Positions 31,108 to 46,020 of a stretch of DNA of 46,020 nucleotides are shown piece after piece. This DNA is from Acidobacteriota bacterium. GTDB lineage: Bacteria > Acidobacteriota > G020349885. Location of the stretch: contig CP070701.1 of the NCBI GenBank assembly GCA_020349885.1, forward strand, positions 1,779,469-1,825,488. The letters are read 5' to 3'. Below the pieces are notes generated by a model, which worked only from the letters and a program-made list of their open reading frames with translations, did no database searches and had not been told where the DNA came from. Each line of letters begins with the position of its first letter. Within the stretch, counting starts at the first letter, position 1. Position numbers and translations under genes: made by a program.

Positions 31108-34100
31108 CTACGTTTCCTGGGCGATGGTCACAAGGGTGTTGGATGCCGCGTTCTTTACCACCTGGCTCGTGCCGTTGGGCCACGTCACCCGGATCTCGTC
31201 GGCTCCGTCGTTTTGCCCGAGGCCGAAGTGCAGAATTTCCGGCTCCTGCGACAAAAACCCCAACCCGCACGTGACGTGCTTACGCATCACCAAATCCCCG
31301 GCCTTCACGACTACCTCCGCCCCCACGCCGTTCCGGTTGTCCGTCTCGCCCCGGAGCCGGAGCTTCAGCCAGCGGTTGCCGCCCTTCTGCTCGTTCCTCA
31401 GGACCACCGCCTTGTCGTGGAAGTTGTTAACGACCAGGTCGAGGTCGCCGTCGTGGTCCATGTCAAAGCGCGCGAAGGTACGGCTCGATCCCAGGAAGAG
31501 TCCGGGTGAATCGACGTCCACGAGATAGAAGTACCCGTTGTGGTTCAGAAAAAGTCTGTTGTTGTCGATATGCAGGTCGCTCAGCCAGCCGTTCGCCAGA
31601 TACATATCGGGGTCGCCGTCGTTCTCGTAATCGAAGAACGCGGCATGCCAGGACCAGCCGTACTCTCCGGGCTCGAACCACTGGTCGAGCTTGTCTTCGA
31701 GGAGCTTTCCTCCCTTGTTCACGTACAAGGCACAGTCTTCCATGAATCGAAACCCGTAAAGAACGGTGTCCGAGATGTCGTTCACGGTTTCGTCCCTCGG
31801 AAACCTGTGCCGGATTCTTCTGGAATACATATCGATGTTCGAGACGAAAACGTCCCAGAACCCGTCCGCGTTCACGTCCACGAAACTCACGTTCATGCTG
31901 TGGCCGCGTATGCGGGGGAGGGCCTCCGAAGTGACGTCTCGAAACGTCCCGTCCCCCAAGTTCTCGAACATGCTGTTCGCAGCGAAATCGTTCGAGATGT
32001 AAATATCCTCGTCGCCGTCCCGATCGAAATCGAACGCCGCCGCCGCCTGAACCCAGCCCGGGTCCCCCAGTCCGGCCCTCTCCGTGACGTCGGCGAACTT
32101 CAGGCCCCCCTTGTTCTCGAAAAGCTTGTTCGGGTATCCGTTCCTGCCCCCGAGCGTAGGACTGATGCCCTTGTCCCACGGCCCGTAACCGGACACGAAC
32201 AGGTCCAGGTCGCCGTCCTTGTCGTAATCGAAAAAGAACGACATCCCCGGTACCGGGGGAGCCGCCTCGACCCCAGCCGCCGCCGTGACGTCGGTGAAAT
32301 GCCCCTCCCCGTCGTTCTCCCAGAGCCGCGACACCCCGAAGGCGTTCGCCAGAAAAAGGTCCAAATCCCCGTCGTTGTCCACGTCGGCAAACAGGGCCGA
32401 ACGGCCCTCGGACAAGTCGGCGACACCTGCCTCCTCGGTAACGTCTCGGAATTTCCCGTTCCCGAGGCCTTTGTAGAGCTTGTTGTCCCGGCCGCTTATG
32501 AGGTAAACGTCCATCCAGCCGTCGCCGTCCACGTCGCCCACGGCGAGGCCGCCGCCGGCGTACTTGGGCTTGCCCTCGCCGCTCAATTTCTGGCTCACAG
32601 TTTTTTCGTTGGATTCATGAAGAAAATCAATTCCCGAATCCTGCGTGACGTCCGCGAAGAAAGGAAGCGGATACGTCTTGAGCAAGGCTTCTTTTTCCCG
32701 CTTATGCGTTTCGCTCCAGGCCGAGTCGGGGACTTCCGGAGGCAGAACAAACTTTGCCATGTTGGAAAGCTCGGCGAAATCCTGGGCCGTGATGACGGTT
32801 TTTCCTGCGGCCTTGGCCAGTTCCTCCGCTCCCACCAGGTAATACGTGGCCAGGATGGACACGGCCTCGGAGATGAACTCGGCCGCGAACGGCGTCAGGG
32901 GTTTTCCCTTTCCCGCAAGCCAGACGTCTTCCATAATCTGCCAATGAAGGGCGTTGTCGCGCAGGGCGTCCATGTCGCGCTCGATGAGAGTAACGGTGAC
33001 GATGTCGCTTTCCGCCGCGCCTTCGCCCGAGCGGTGGGGACGGCCGAACCTCAAAACCACGTCGCCGTTGAACAGCAGGCGGTAGGGAAGCACCCCCTGA
33101 ATCCGCTCGCGATCCTCGGCTTCGTCGATCACCACCCCGGGACAGTCCGAAGCCAGGGCCATGTAGAATTCCCTGAGCTGTTCAATCAGGTATTGAACGC
33201 CCTCCTTGTCCACAGGAATGCCGGAGAGCTCGTTGATGAACTGCTCGACGTTCTCCTCTACCGCGCCGGCGTTGTATCGTTTGAGGGATTCTATCTTTCG
33301 GCGAATCAGCTTCCGCGTCAACGTGTTAAGAAATTCGCGCTCCCGCTCTCCGAGTTGTTTCTTCGCCGCTTCGGAGGAAGCGCTTTCCCCCCGCCCGCTC
33401 ACGGGGGAGGGGAGGGCGTCCAAGGCATGCATTTCCGCGATTCTCTCAAACGCTTCCCGGACGTGCGGGGCATGCGAGTGCACGCGCCTGTCCTCGTTGG
33501 AAACATTGGTGGTCTCCCTCAACAGCTCGAGCGAGAGAGAAGAGACGATGCGCGAGAGCTCGATGGTGGCTTCCGGAGTCAGGGGCTTGAGGAGCACGGG
33601 TCGCTCCTCGTAGAGGCCTATACCGCACACCGCGTCCTGAATGACGGAGAGGAGGATTCGCCAGTGCTCCGATGTCGTTCGGTAGTCTGTAAAATCGTTG
33701 AAGCCCAGTTCTTTGAAAATTTCCTTGCCCCCGCGAACCTGGTAAATCGGCACCTTACCGCGGCCCTGCCGGCTGACGCGGGCGAGGTCTTCCGACGTGA
33801 TGTGCGTTCCCTTGGCCGCCACGGAAGTTTTTTCCCAGAGCCGGTCGGTGAGCTCCTGCATGGAGCGGATTTTCTCAAGCACCGCCATCGGGGTATGCGG
33901 CTTCTGGGCGATGAAGTTGTCGAGCTTGCAGAAGCTGGACCAGCACACCACGTCCTCCTTCGTTTCGAGTAGGGCGATTTGCTCAAAGACGAAGTCCGCC
34001 ATCTCGAACAAATCGGCTGGAGCGGCCGATGTGACCGACCCCGCTTCCGCATGCCCGAAGCGGTTCCAGCCGTACCATCCCGCTGCCAAGATAAGCAGCA

Positions 34101-34140
34101 CAACGGCCAGCGCTGCGGCCAGGTAACGTGGTTGTAGCAT
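31108..34140 (-). CDS. FG-GAP/ASPIC-UnbV (CRTAC1-type) protein, paralogue B
   Basis: This 1010-residue protein is a full-length paralogue of the one at 19010-22222. The N-terminus is a membrane anchor or signal (YLAAALAVVLLILAAGWYGW), then the same unrecognised helical domain (ADLFEMADFVFEQIALLETK, VVCWSSFCKLDNFIAQKPH), seven DxDGDxD propeller blades (GDVDGDGWMDVYLISG to DMDHDGDLDLVVNNF) and the ASPIC/UnbV end (RWLKLRLRGETDNRNGVGAE, HFGLGQNDGADEIRV). It lacks the Pro/Ala tail of paralogue A. No ribosome binding site is seen; the promoter at 34147-34176 puts transcription start at the ATG itself. The gene is convergent with the mmsA operon. Confidence 0.85.
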   Translation of the reverse strand: MLQPRYLAAALAVVLLILAAGWYGWNRFGHAEAGSVTSAAPADLFEMADFVFEQIALLETKEDVVCWSSFCKLDNFIAQKPHTPMAVLEKIRSMQELTDRLWEKTSVAAKGTHITSEDLARVSRQGRGKVPIYQVRGGKEIFKELGFNDFTDYRTTSEHWRILLSVIQDAVCGIGLYEERPVLLKPLTPEATIELSRIVSSLSLELLRETTNVSNEDRRVHSHAPHVREAFERIAEMHALDALPSPVSGRGESASSEAAKKQLGEREREFLNTLTRKLIRRKIESLKRYNAGAVEENVEQFINELSGIPVDKEGVQYLIEQLREFYMALASDCPGVVIDEAEDRERIQGVLPYRLLFNGDVVLRFGRPHRSGEGAAESDIVTVTLIERDMDALRDNALHWQIMEDVWLAGKGKPLTPFAAEFISEAVSILATYYLVGAEELAKAAGKTVITAQDFAELSNMAKFVLPPEVPDSAWSETHKREKEALLKTYPLPFFADVTQDSGIDFLHESNEKTVSQKLSGEGKPKYAGGGLAVGDVDGDGWMDVYLISGRDNKLYKGLGNGKFRDVTEEAGVADLSEGRSALFADVDNDGDLDLFLANAFGVSRLWENDGEGHFTDVTAAAGVEAAPPVPGMSFFFDYDKDGDLDLFVSGYGPWDKGISPTLGGRNGYPNKLFENKGGLKFADVTERAGLGDPGWVQAAAAFDFDRDGDEDIYISNDFAANSMFENLGDGTFRDVTSEALPRIRGHSMNVSFVDVNADGFWDVFVSNIDMYSRRIRHRFPRDETVNDISDTVLYGFRFMEDCALYVNKGGKLLEDKLDQWFEPGEYGWSWHAAFFDYENDGDPDMYLANGWLSDLHIDNNRLFLNHNGYFYLVDVDSPGLFLGSSRTFARFDMDHDGDLDLVVNNFHDKAVVLRNEQKGGNRWLKLRLRGETDNRNGVGAEVVVKAGDLVMRKHVTCGLGFLSQEPEILHFGLGQNDGADEIRVTWPNGTSQVVKNAASNTLVTIAQET

Positions 34141-36687: not shown

Positions 36688-37347
36688 TCAGAAACTCAGC
36701 ACATTGCTTTCCGAAAGGGGCTGCTGTTCAAAGCGCTCAAACCTCCACCGCAGCGCTTTAAGGACCTCGTTCAGCCCAAGCGCCCCGAGGCAGAGCACCG
36801 TGCCGCCCGCAAGGCAGTGAGCGGGCCGGTTCTGCACGATGCCCGTGAAAATGAGGTTCCCGAGACCCCCGACGCCGACGAATCCGCCAAGCGCCACGAG
36901 CGCCAGCGCCGCGAGCAGCGCAAGGCGCAGTCCTTCCAGGAAAAACGGCATGCTTTGAGGCAGCTTGAGAAGGAAGAAAAGGCGCACTTCGCTCAACCCC
37001 ATGCTGCGGCATGCCTTGAGCGTGGTCTGATCGACGCGGCGCATGCCGCGCGACGTGCAGCAAACGACGGGCACAAGCGCGTAGACCCCCACAAGAATGT
37101 TCACCGCGGCCGCGCCCTTTCCATGGGCACCTATCGCGAGCCCCAAAAGGCCCACGAAAGGGAAGGCGTAAAGCACGTGGAGTATGGTGTCGCCCAGGCG
37201 GTCGCAGAGCCTCGTGTGCGAAAGAAGCCAGGCAATCGGGATTCCCACCACTACCGCGGCCCCCACCGAGCTGAGGCTTAGGGTCGCGTGTTCCAAAGCG
37301 GCCTCCAGCACGAGGCGCGTCTGATCCGATGTGAGCAGAGACAGCAT
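36688..37347 (-). CDS. ABC transporter permease, glycine betaine/choline type (OpuBB-like)
   Basis: An inner-membrane permease of 219 residues with about five to six helices. The EAA-type coupling loop is visible (ACRSMGLSEVRLFFLLKLPQS), as are LLSHTRLCDRLGDTILHVLY and FVGVGGLGNLIFTGI typical of osmoprotectant permeases (OpuB/OpuC/YehW). There is no fused substrate-binding domain and no binding-protein gene in the window. It lies 17 bases after the ATPase gene and four bases before the lon-family gene, so these three are one transcript. Transport of betaine, choline or carnitine is the family expectation only. Confidence 0.87.
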   Translation of the reverse strand: MLSLLTSDQTRLVLEAALEHATLSLSSVGAAVVVGIPIAWLLSHTRLCDRLGDTILHVLYAFPFVGLLGLAIGAHGKGAAAVNILVGVYALVPVVCCTSRGMRRVDQTTLKACRSMGLSEVRLFFLLKLPQSMPFFLEGLRLALLAALALVALGGFVGVGGLGNLIFTGIVQNRPAHCLAGGTVLCLGALGLNEVLKALRWRFERFEQQPLSESNVLSF

Positions 37348-37364: not shown

Positions 37365-38480
37365 TTACAAAAGCTTTTCAAGTTGTTTGGAAATACCCTT
37401 CCGCGTGATGAGTCCTTGGAGGCAATTCGATTCATCTGTAACGGGAAGGAACTCCTCCTCGCTTTCCACGAAAAATCCCAGGGCGTCCGAAAAGCTGTCC
37501 GTCGTATTCAATGCAAAGACGTTGGTTTTGACGGCGTCGCCGATGCGCCGCTCTGGGTTCCCGTCTTGAACATCCTCAAGGCTGATAAGGCCCTGCAGCA
37601 CGCGGTTTTCGTCCGCGACGAGGAGGCTTCCGATGCGGTGCTTGCGCATCAAAAACACCGCCCGCGACACGGGAAGATTCGCCTGGGAAAGTGTAATGAA
37701 GATGGGATCGCGAATCATCAACTCGGCTAGGCTCACGGCTTCAAGCTCGATTTGAAACTTGTGCCGCCGCACGAGCGCCTCGCCGTACTTGGTGCGGGGA
37801 CTCCGGATGAACGTCTTCGTGTCCGCCGCTTCGAGAACGCGGCCCTCCTTCATCAGCACCACCACGGTCGCAAGCTTTACGGTTTCGACGACGTCGCGTG
37901 TCGCGATTACGAACGTGGTTTTGGGGCAAAGGGAGCGGACGCGCAGGAACTCGCGCCGCATGAGGTCGCGCTCCGTGCGGCCGAGTCCGAAGAACGGCTC
38001 GTCCAAAAGCACGAGCGGCGGACTCGCCACGAGCGCGCGTGCAAACGCCGCTTGCAGGCGCTCAATGGAGCTTGCAAAAGCCGGATATTTTCCAGCGGCG
38101 GCATCATCAAGCCCGACCACCCCTAGGATGCGGGTGATTTCCTCGCCGCGGCGGGCTCTCGGAAAAGACGCCAAGCGCGGCGCGAGGGCGACGTTTTGGC
38201 GAAGGGTTCGATGTGGAACGAGGCCGCCTCCGGGCACGACAAAGCCCATCGTGGCCCGGTGTTCGAGCACATTCACCCGGTTTACGTCCACGCCGCCCAC
38301 CTGAATCTGCCCGGAAGTGGGGCCCTCGAGCCGGTTGATGAGCCGGAGCAGTGTGGATTTGCCCGACCTCTCCTCCCCCAGAAGAGCCGTCGTGCTGTTT
38401 TCCTCGACGAGGAGCTCAATGTCCTTGAGCGCGGTAACGTCAGGACGGTAGTATTTGCTAACGCCTTTCAGATAAACCAT
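37365..38480 (-). CDS. ABC transporter ATP-binding protein, ProV/OpuBA type with CBS pair and degenerate catalytic motifs
   Basis: The 371-residue protein has the ProV/OpuCA layout: nucleotide-binding domain (about 1-240) and two CBS domains (about 255-370). Walker A (GEERSGKST, 35-43) and Walker B (LVLLDEP, 156-162) are present. The Q-loop glutamine is replaced by P83 (GFVVPGGGLVPH), the LSGGQ signature reads FASSIERL near 135-142, the D-loop is FGLG, and the H-switch histidine is R195 (IATRDVVET). ATP binding may persist but normal hydrolysis looks unlikely, so it may be a regulatory or asymmetric subunit, or a decaying gene. The reading frame is intact, which argues for a retained function. 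GAGGTGG precedes the ATG. It is the partner of the permease 17 bases downstream. Confidence 0.87.
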   Translation of the reverse strand: MVYLKGVSKYYRPDVTALKDIELLVEENSTTALLGEERSGKSTLLRLINRLEGPTSGQIQVGGVDVNRVNVLEHRATMGFVVPGGGLVPHRTLRQNVALAPRLASFPRARRGEEITRILGVVGLDDAAAGKYPAFASSIERLQAAFARALVASPPLVLLDEPFFGLGRTERDLMRREFLRVRSLCPKTTFVIATRDVVETVKLATVVVLMKEGRVLEAADTKTFIRSPRTKYGEALVRRHKFQIELEAVSLAELMIRDPIFITLSQANLPVSRAVFLMRKHRIGSLLVADENRVLQGLISLEDVQDGNPERRIGDAVKTNVFALNTTDSFSDALGFFVESEEEFLPVTDESNCLQGLITRKGISKQLEKLL

Positions 38481-38539: not shown

Positions 38540-39910
38540 TCAGTTCGTGTAGCCAAGGCTCCGGAGTTTTTCTTCATCTTCGCGCGAGAGAGTGGCCGCG
38601 GGGGATACAACCGCCGTCGACTTAATCCTCTGCACCAGCCGGTGGCCGGTGTCTTGGTAGCGGGGAAACTCTTGGAAAAGATTCTCCTGCTCCCATGGGT
38701 CGCTTGCGAGATCGTACACTTCATGCTGCTTGGTTGCAGGCGTGTAGATGATCTTGTGGGGAGCTGAGAACATGCCCACCTTGCGGGGCAGCGTGGAAGG
38801 CTCGCGCCGAAAGAGCCACCGCAGTATGCGCGGCACGTGCCCTATCGCGCCGGAGTACGTCTGGAAATATAACGTACGCCCGGCGTCGGAAGGCGCTTCA
38901 CCTTCAATCCAAGGTTTCAAACTCATTCCCTGAAATTGTCGAGGCGAGGAAAGGCCCAACAGTTCCAGCACCGTCGGGGCCACGTCCAGCAAGGCCACCG
39001 TCCCTGGAACCACCTTCCCTCGCGGAAGATGCGAGTCATAGCGCACCAGCAGGGGTACGGCAAGATTGGTCTCGTACACCTTGCGTCCGTGCCCCAGATA
39101 GCCGTGCTCCCCCAGGCTTTCGCCGTGGTCGGAGGTCAGCACGATCAGGGTGCGCTCGGTTAGTTTCATCGATTCCAGTTCATCCAAAAACAGTCCAACG
39201 TATGAATCGGTGTAGGAAATTTCCTGGTTGTAGTGCTCGACCTTGCGGCGCTCGGGGATTTCCAAGCCCCAGCGGCCGTGGGAGGCGGGATTGGGCTCGG
39301 GATCGGCGAATTCGGGATGGGCGCGGTATGGAGCATGGGGGTCAAAAAAGTGCAGGAACAAAAAGAACGGTTTTCCCTCGGCGGCCTTCTCCTTGAGCCA
39401 CGCCGTGGCATGGGGAAGCGTTTCCTCGGCCGAGCGCTTCGTATTGACGACCCGGTAGCGGTCGGTCATCGCGTCGTCGTAGACGTCGAAGCCGCGGTCG
39501 AGGCCCGTCATGCGCCGCCGGAGCGTCCAGCCGCTCAAGAAAGCCCCCGTCGCGTAGCCTTGCTCCTTGAGGATCTCCGCCAGTGTAACGACCGAATCGA
39601 CGACGGGCACGCCGTTTCGGATGGAGCCGTGCTCGTGCGGATAGAGCGACGTGAGCATCGTGGCGTGCCCGGGTCCCGTGAGAGGCACCTGCGAGAAACA
39701 GTGTGTGAATCGGACACCCCTTCTTGCCAGCTTTTGGTCGATTTGAGGCGAAGTTACGGCGGGATAGCCGTAGCATGAGAGGTGGTCGGCCCGCAGCGTG
39801 TCGATGGAGATGAGGACGACGTTGGGGCGGTCAGCCGCCCCGGCCGTGTCTCCGTGGGCCGCCCCCACTAGGCTTGAGCAGATCAGGATGATGGAACAGG
39901 TAAGCCGCAT
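38540..39910 (-). CDS. Sulfatase-superfamily hydrolase lacking the formylglycine motif
   Basis: An exported alkaline-phosphatase-superfamily hydrolase of 456 residues with signal peptide MRLTCSIILICSSLVGAAHG. Metal-site segments are present: NVVLISIDTLRADHLSCYGY near 30-48 and LTSDHGESLGEHGYLGHGRK near 255, with a C-terminal WEQENLF typical of sulfatases. The sulfatase signature C/S-x-P-x-R, which matures to formylglycine, is here T78-G-P-G-H (PLTGPGHATMLTSLYPHEHG). The nucleophile is thus probably Thr, as in phosphodiesterase members. Sulfate or phosphate ester substrates are both possible. GGGAG precedes the ATG, and a promoter lies at 39955-39984. The gene may be co-transcribed with the ABC genes 59 bases downstream. 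Confidence 0.88.
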   Translation of the reverse strand: MRLTCSIILICSSLVGAAHGDTAGAADRPNVVLISIDTLRADHLSCYGYPAVTSPQIDQKLARRGVRFTHCFSQVPLTGPGHATMLTSLYPHEHGSIRNGVPVVDSVVTLAEILKEQGYATGAFLSGWTLRRRMTGLDRGFDVYDDAMTDRYRVVNTKRSAEETLPHATAWLKEKAAEGKPFFLFLHFFDPHAPYRAHPEFADPEPNPASHGRWGLEIPERRKVEHYNQEISYTDSYVGLFLDELESMKLTERTLIVLTSDHGESLGEHGYLGHGRKVYETNLAVPLLVRYDSHLPRGKVVPGTVALLDVAPTVLELLGLSSPRQFQGMSLKPWIEGEAPSDAGRTLYFQTYSGAIGHVPRILRWLFRREPSTLPRKVGMFSAPHKIIYTPATKQHEVYDLASDPWEQENLFQEFPRYQDTGHRLVQRIKSTAVVSPAATLSREDEEKLRSLGYTN

Positions 39911-45371: not shown

Positions 45372-46020
45372 CAAAAGGCAAGTTTTTTATCTACAATAAC
45401 CTTATGAGCGGGAGTAGCTCAGTGGCAGAGCATCGGCCTTCCAAGCCGATTTAGGCCAATTTCGGAACCCTTTTACCGACACCGACTTACAACCTAACTC
45501 CCTATCAGACAAGGATTTTCCTTTTGGTGCGACTCGGTGGGGGGGTGGTGTGCTTTTGTGGGGTCAGTGGTTGAAAAATGGTTGAATCTGAATGGGGCAT
45601 TTGAAGAGGGGGGCCAAGCCCCTCCGCTATCGACCATATACCAAGTAGTCTAAGTCTCAAATCGAACCTCAAAATAGCATTAGTTCCATGTAACTTTTGA
45701 TGTAATGGGGGCAATTGATGAGAAACTACTTTAGGTATTGGCGTTCTGATGCACGGTTTTGGCGTGATGTAAACCCGTTGGGGTGTCTCTCTACACTCTC
45801 CGAGGAAATTTCTGCTCTCAAGGCGGATCGAAAATAGAGAAGGGGGGAGGGGAGGAGCCGGAAGGAAGAAGGTTAACCATTCAATATATTGCCCTATAAA
45901 AACGCGCTCAGAAATTGAAAAAGTTTCGTTTTCGTTCTCTACAGTAGCCCAACCCTTTCAGTGTCCTTGGGGTAAAAATCACCCTTTATGCCCACCCTAT
46001 ACCATACCTAGTAATTATAT
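45372..46020. other. Gene-free end of window after a broken tRNA
   Basis: After the tRNA-Gly fragment the sequence becomes AT-rich and has no convincing gene. It contains a GAGGGG...CCCCTC hairpin (45606-45624), a TGGTTGAA direct repeat about one helical turn apart (near 45568 and 45579), and no rRNA or integrase. The 69-codon minus-strand frame (45505-45714) lacks gene-like features. Confidence 0.55.
45408..45450 (+). tRNA. Truncated tRNA-Gly(TCC), 5' half only
   Basis: The acceptor strand GCGGGAG, D-arm GCTC-AGTGGCA-GAGC and a perfect anticodon arm TCGGC-CTTCCAA-GCCGA (anticodon TCC) match bacterial tRNA-Gly. From base 45451 the T-arm and the matching CTCCCGC acceptor strand are missing. 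A -10-like TACAAT (45392-45397) lies before it. The gene is broken or joined to foreign sequence right after the anticodon stem. Confidence 0.75.

Follow-up and report, generated by a model that had tools for sequence, protein, structure and literature searches.

A degenerate OpuCA/ProV-type ABC ATPase with a CBS pair in an Acidobacteriota genome, and what it may still do

What becomes of an ABC importer when its ATPase loses the motifs of its ATP site, while its reading frame and its CBS domains stay intact? This question is raised by a locus lying in 46,020 nucleotides of an Acidobacteriota genome (the whole stretch of DNA that was analysed, hereafter the window), where an ATPase of the OpuCA/ProV type, P0001, is followed by a diverged permease, P0002. 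An earlier note on this DNA had described the ATPase as devoid of Q-loop Gln, LSGGQ signature, D-loop and switch His, and had proposed that it may have become a sensor or may need a second ATPase.

ATP-site motifs of P0001

P0001 is open from ATG to stop over 371 codons. Pfam recognises an ABC_tran domain (PF00005; 70.7 bits against a cut-off of 25), with the Walker A consensus and Walker B in place, and two CBS stretches C-terminal to it; the CBS domains appear intact, as had been noted. The TIGR01186 proV model aligns with residues 16-364 at 176.7 bits, under its cut-off of 326.6, which the canonical OpuCA of the same genome, a protein without CBS domains, does not reach either (306.7, genome search). 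The features of P0001, with motif calls made against 57 aligned family members, are as follows.

37365..38480, minus strand: P0001, degenerate OpuCA/ProV-type ABC ATPase with a C-terminal CBS pair, 371 aa
38352..38378, minus strand: Walker A GEERSGKST, residues 35-43 (alignment to homologues)
38232..38234, minus strand: Pro83 in place of the Q-loop Gln (Q83P; 57-homologue alignment)
38061..38075, minus strand: ASSIE in place of the signature LSGGQ, residues 136-140 (homologue alignment)
37998..38015, minus strand: Walker B LVLLDE, residues 156-161, with the catalytic Glu161 present
37980..37991, minus strand: FGLG in place of the D-loop GALD, residues 164-167 (homologue alignment)
37896..37898, minus strand: Arg195 in place of the switch His (H195R; homologue alignment)
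37377..37727, minus strand: tandem CBS, residues about 252-368, second boundary approximate

The alignment bears out the replacement of all four elements named earlier. Signature changes are L136A, G138S and G139I, with Ser137 retained and a Glu at the last position that is a frequent variant, and those in the D-loop are A165G and D167G; like Q83P and H195R, they affect positions at which the family shows little or no variation. That Walker A and B remain, as the earlier note put it, holds for Walker B (L158, D160 and E161 unchanged) and for the consensus G35xxxxG40K41S42, but the invariant S37-G38 of Walker A has become E-R; the earlier observation is right, and slightly understated in leaving this last loss unmentioned. 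Overall, of the 56 columns with a conservation of 90% or higher, P0001 retains 36, against 56/56 in the canonical OpuCA of the genome. This pattern of motif loss is far beyond chance. In an AlphaFold model built from four sequences, residues 80-240 of the ABC core reach a pLDDT of mostly 78-90, the CBS part being modelled poorly. The CBS pair is homologous to that of OpuCA, its best match among solved structures being the CBS of Listeria OpuCA (5ks7).

An ATP site is formed by Walker A and B and the A-, Q- and H-loops of one chain together with the signature of the other (PMC7756269), and because each site takes motifs from both chains, a P0001 homodimer is broken at both sites. Considering established ABC biochemistry, the lost motifs probably leave P0001 without useful ATP hydrolysis, and they justify the earlier expectation that its hydrolysis would not be normal. 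Could the complex nevertheless still import at the expense of ATP, through an unusual ATP site and with the binding protein of the genome acting in trans? The Walker A core and the Walker B Glu are kept, the permease is intact, and loss of the H-loop is tolerated by some ABC proteins, for example in an H-loop mutant of Pdr5 (PMC6222333). Here, however, the Q, the signature glycines, the D-loop Asp and the H are lost together on a homodimer, and H192R in MalK or H211R in HisP leaves under 2% of ATPase activity (PMC6222333), which makes a working importer highly improbable.

Relatives, neighbouring genes and the canonical system

The combined losses of P0001 are found in none of the 57 aligned homologues. 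Searches of 99 relatives and of 396 phylum genomes gave no match closer than 43% identity. Canonical motifs are present in the relatives that were read for them, and sharing of the losses was judged on these, out of a larger set with many weaker matches. A scan of genome contigs for relatives sharing the losses returned distant ABC proteins only, every match in a plasmid scan was under 60% identical, and no sharing was seen among the motifs read in the class of G058, while the class of G092 gave nothing at 1e-40 and carries no weight in this respect. The losses are known from one sequence, whose genome is the single representative of its class in the compared set.

The nearest relatives in the phylum (L005, L006, L007, L042-L044; 38-43% identical) form a clade with P0001 in the ABC-domain tree (support 99/94). 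Unlike P0001, they have canonical motifs; no CBS is seen in their ATPase open frame, whereas P0001 has a CBS pair, and their partner is a fused binding protein-permease, in contrast to the separate permease of P0001. The position of P0001 is nonetheless unsure, because its branch is so long (2.94 against a median of 0.29, with the frame still open), and long branches also make the permease tree unusable. A recent duplication of the genome's own OpuCA was considered and finds no support in the tree, which places P0001 in the other clade and not beside that protein. Another sequence that seemed low in retained columns (L093) turned out to be an ordinary ProV-like member.

The neighbouring genes lie on the same strand as P0001.

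36688..37347, minus strand: P0002, OpuCB/ProW-type permease, 219 aa, 17 bp downstream of P0001
34173..36683, minus strand: LonB/LonC-like AAA+ protease, 4 bp past the permease stop
38540..39910, minus strand: sulfatase-family gene, 59 bp upstream of P0001

P0002 is strongly diverged and membrane-competent by hydropathy. The protease is possibly co-transcribed with P0001/P0002, and the sulfatase-family gene possibly shares the transcript of P0001. Of the two partners that define an OpuCA/ProV operon, the permease is adjacent and the OpuAC protein is absent, no OpuAC binding-protein gene being present near the locus, where Rfam likewise finds no riboswitch. Elsewhere in the window, a 1010-aa FG-GAP/UnbV_ASPIC repeat protein is encoded at 31108-34140, which shares its strand with the LonB-like gene and lies downstream of it, and Rfam gives a weak tRNA match at 45408-45477 (30.8 bits, threshold 29) that ARAGORN did not find.

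A canonical ATPase was sought in the genome and found, in a single complete operon (L034:6765-9105) that encodes an OpuCA of 253 aa without CBS (L034:6765-7526), a permease of 212 aa and an OpuAC protein of 311 aa. The genome also encodes a c-di-AMP synthase domain, and the combined motif loss is seen in none of its other full-length ABC ATPases, ordinary subfamily variants aside. At another locus (L035:5070-8222; G000:C1, about 839069-842221), a 1050-aa ORF carries an OpuAC-type binding domain in which the order of the two halves is exchanged, fused to a coiled coil and to MscS mechanosensitive-channel domains; it is possibly a solute-binding osmotic channel. Beside this fusion lies a protein of 837 aa that contains two binding domains of the NMT1/TAXI type (L035:1420-3933), followed by an ORF that is putatively glutaminase-like by sequence reading (L035:4100-5149).

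Does P0001 serve the canonical system, mixing with its ATPase, permease and binding protein and damping or gating the importer on a CBS ligand? The CBS domains sit in the degenerate ATPase and not in the canonical one, the genome has just one OpuAC binding protein standing alone, and in asymmetric exporters the degenerate ATP sites have an effect on the canonical one (PMC7756269). In a mixed dimer, however, one site would be without Q and H and the other without signature and D-loop: P0001 is broken in both site halves, and therefore no intact site exists in a heterodimer with canonical OpuCA. Rescue by a canonical partner is ruled out on site composition, which weakens the idea that P0001 may need a second ATPase, although a canonical OpuCA exists. 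The two loci are moreover about 364 kb apart, P0001 has its own permease, and it is not sister to the OpuCA of its genome in the tree, so that a role as regulatory subunit appears quite improbable.

Decay or maintenance

Is the locus then a redundant importer copy that has lost its binding protein and slowly drifts towards a pseudogene, its frames open by luck or recency? A complete canonical system elsewhere and the missing binding-protein gene would fit such a decay, as would the number of conserved positions gone in ATPase (20/56) and permease (23/44). The earlier note had taken homologues with normal motifs, together with scattered mutations typical of decay, as grounds against its proposal. 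The homologues' motifs are normal, but the losses of P0001 are unlike scattered decay: they cluster in ATP-site columns (12/21, against 8/35 elsewhere; one-sided Fisher p = 0.011, the grouping of columns following their known role but having been made with the losses already in view). Replacements are radical in motif columns (mean BLOSUM62 -1.08) and mild in the other columns (+0.25); the 20 taken together show no excess of conservative changes over random expectation (p 0.18).

In the permease, the changes at conserved sites are conservative (BLOSUM62 +0.22, against -0.67 expected under random mutation, p about 0.0007), and transmembrane hydropathy is preserved (1.72, against 1.84 +/- 0.13 in the family). 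Random mutation to an equal loss of conserved columns (36% in P0001, 52% in P0002) would be expected to create 3.3 and 2.9 stops, respectively, with a probability of 0.037 and 0.08 of no stop, indels not being counted, yet both frames are open. Codon usage resembles that of neighbouring genes, if slightly less biased, and is close to that of the sulfatase gene, while GC3 and relative codon adaptation are slightly below most neighbours, as decay would have it. The faster evolution of both genes is also expected from relaxed constraint.

Taken together, these tests favour a maintained product, not decisively, and decay is a serious rival. Ordinary decay of P0001/P0002 is disfavoured, because the frames are open despite extreme divergence, the permease changes are conservative and the ATPase losses cluster in ATP-site motifs; we regard it as somewhat unlikely.

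A possible CBS-gated complex and known systems

The preferred reading, to which we assign a probability of roughly 0.4, is that P0001/P0002 would be an old, fast-evolving OpuC/ProU-type paralogue, kept by selection, that has abandoned ATP-driven import and may act as a CBS-gated sensor or valve. A complex that is CBS-gated and does not pump is favoured because the ATP sites are broken, the CBS pair is closest to that of OpuCA, and a c-di-AMP synthase domain is encoded in the genome. The P0001 chain would still fold and dimerise under the P0002 permease, and might bind nucleotide via GKS/DE, but would be unable to close the ATP sandwich or to hydrolyse at a useful rate, in which case nucleotide would not drive import. 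The CBS pair would respond to a signal that might be c-di-AMP, ionic strength or some adenine nucleotide, and would then set the conformation of P0002, making the complex a membrane sensor or a passive valve. The CBS pair of OpuA and OpuC binds c-di-AMP, which blocks transport in OpuA (PMC10243994), and by analogy c-di-AMP binding by the pair of P0001 is possible, as is the sensor function through CBS that had been suggested for it; CBS gating, and any flux through P0001/P0002, are inferred.

That this type I importer ATPase and its permease should together have become a hydrolysis-free membrane sensor or valve, gated by binding of a CBS ligand, is itself rather unlikely. If true, it would mean that the scaffold of a type I importer can be kept for a purpose other than ATP-driven uptake, and that CBS gating in the OpuA/OpuC family could be studied apart from hydrolysis. 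In the literature searched, of which coverage was incomplete, no pseudo-ATPase importer of this kind was found. ABC proteins that have turned into a channel or a regulator offer a counterpart in principle to P0001/P0002, which is prokaryotic and of importer type.

The closest known systems are the osmolyte importers whose ATPases, OpuCA and BusAA of OpuA (TIGR01186; PDB 7ahc, 5ks7), combine, like P0001, an ABC domain with tandem CBS, and whose genes likewise adjoin a ProW/OpuCB-type permease. P0001 differs from them in lacking the Q-loop, signature, D-loop, switch His and Walker A SG, in having no adjacent binding protein, and in scoring far under the family cut-off. Exporters with degenerate ATP sites are a familiar case, but in them a complete composite site remains. 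Like P0001, Pdr5 and the other transporters of this kind have lost several motifs including the signature and the switch His; they nevertheless keep one complete composite site, whereas P0001 supplies no complete half to either, and they are exporters, whereas P0001 is of importer type.
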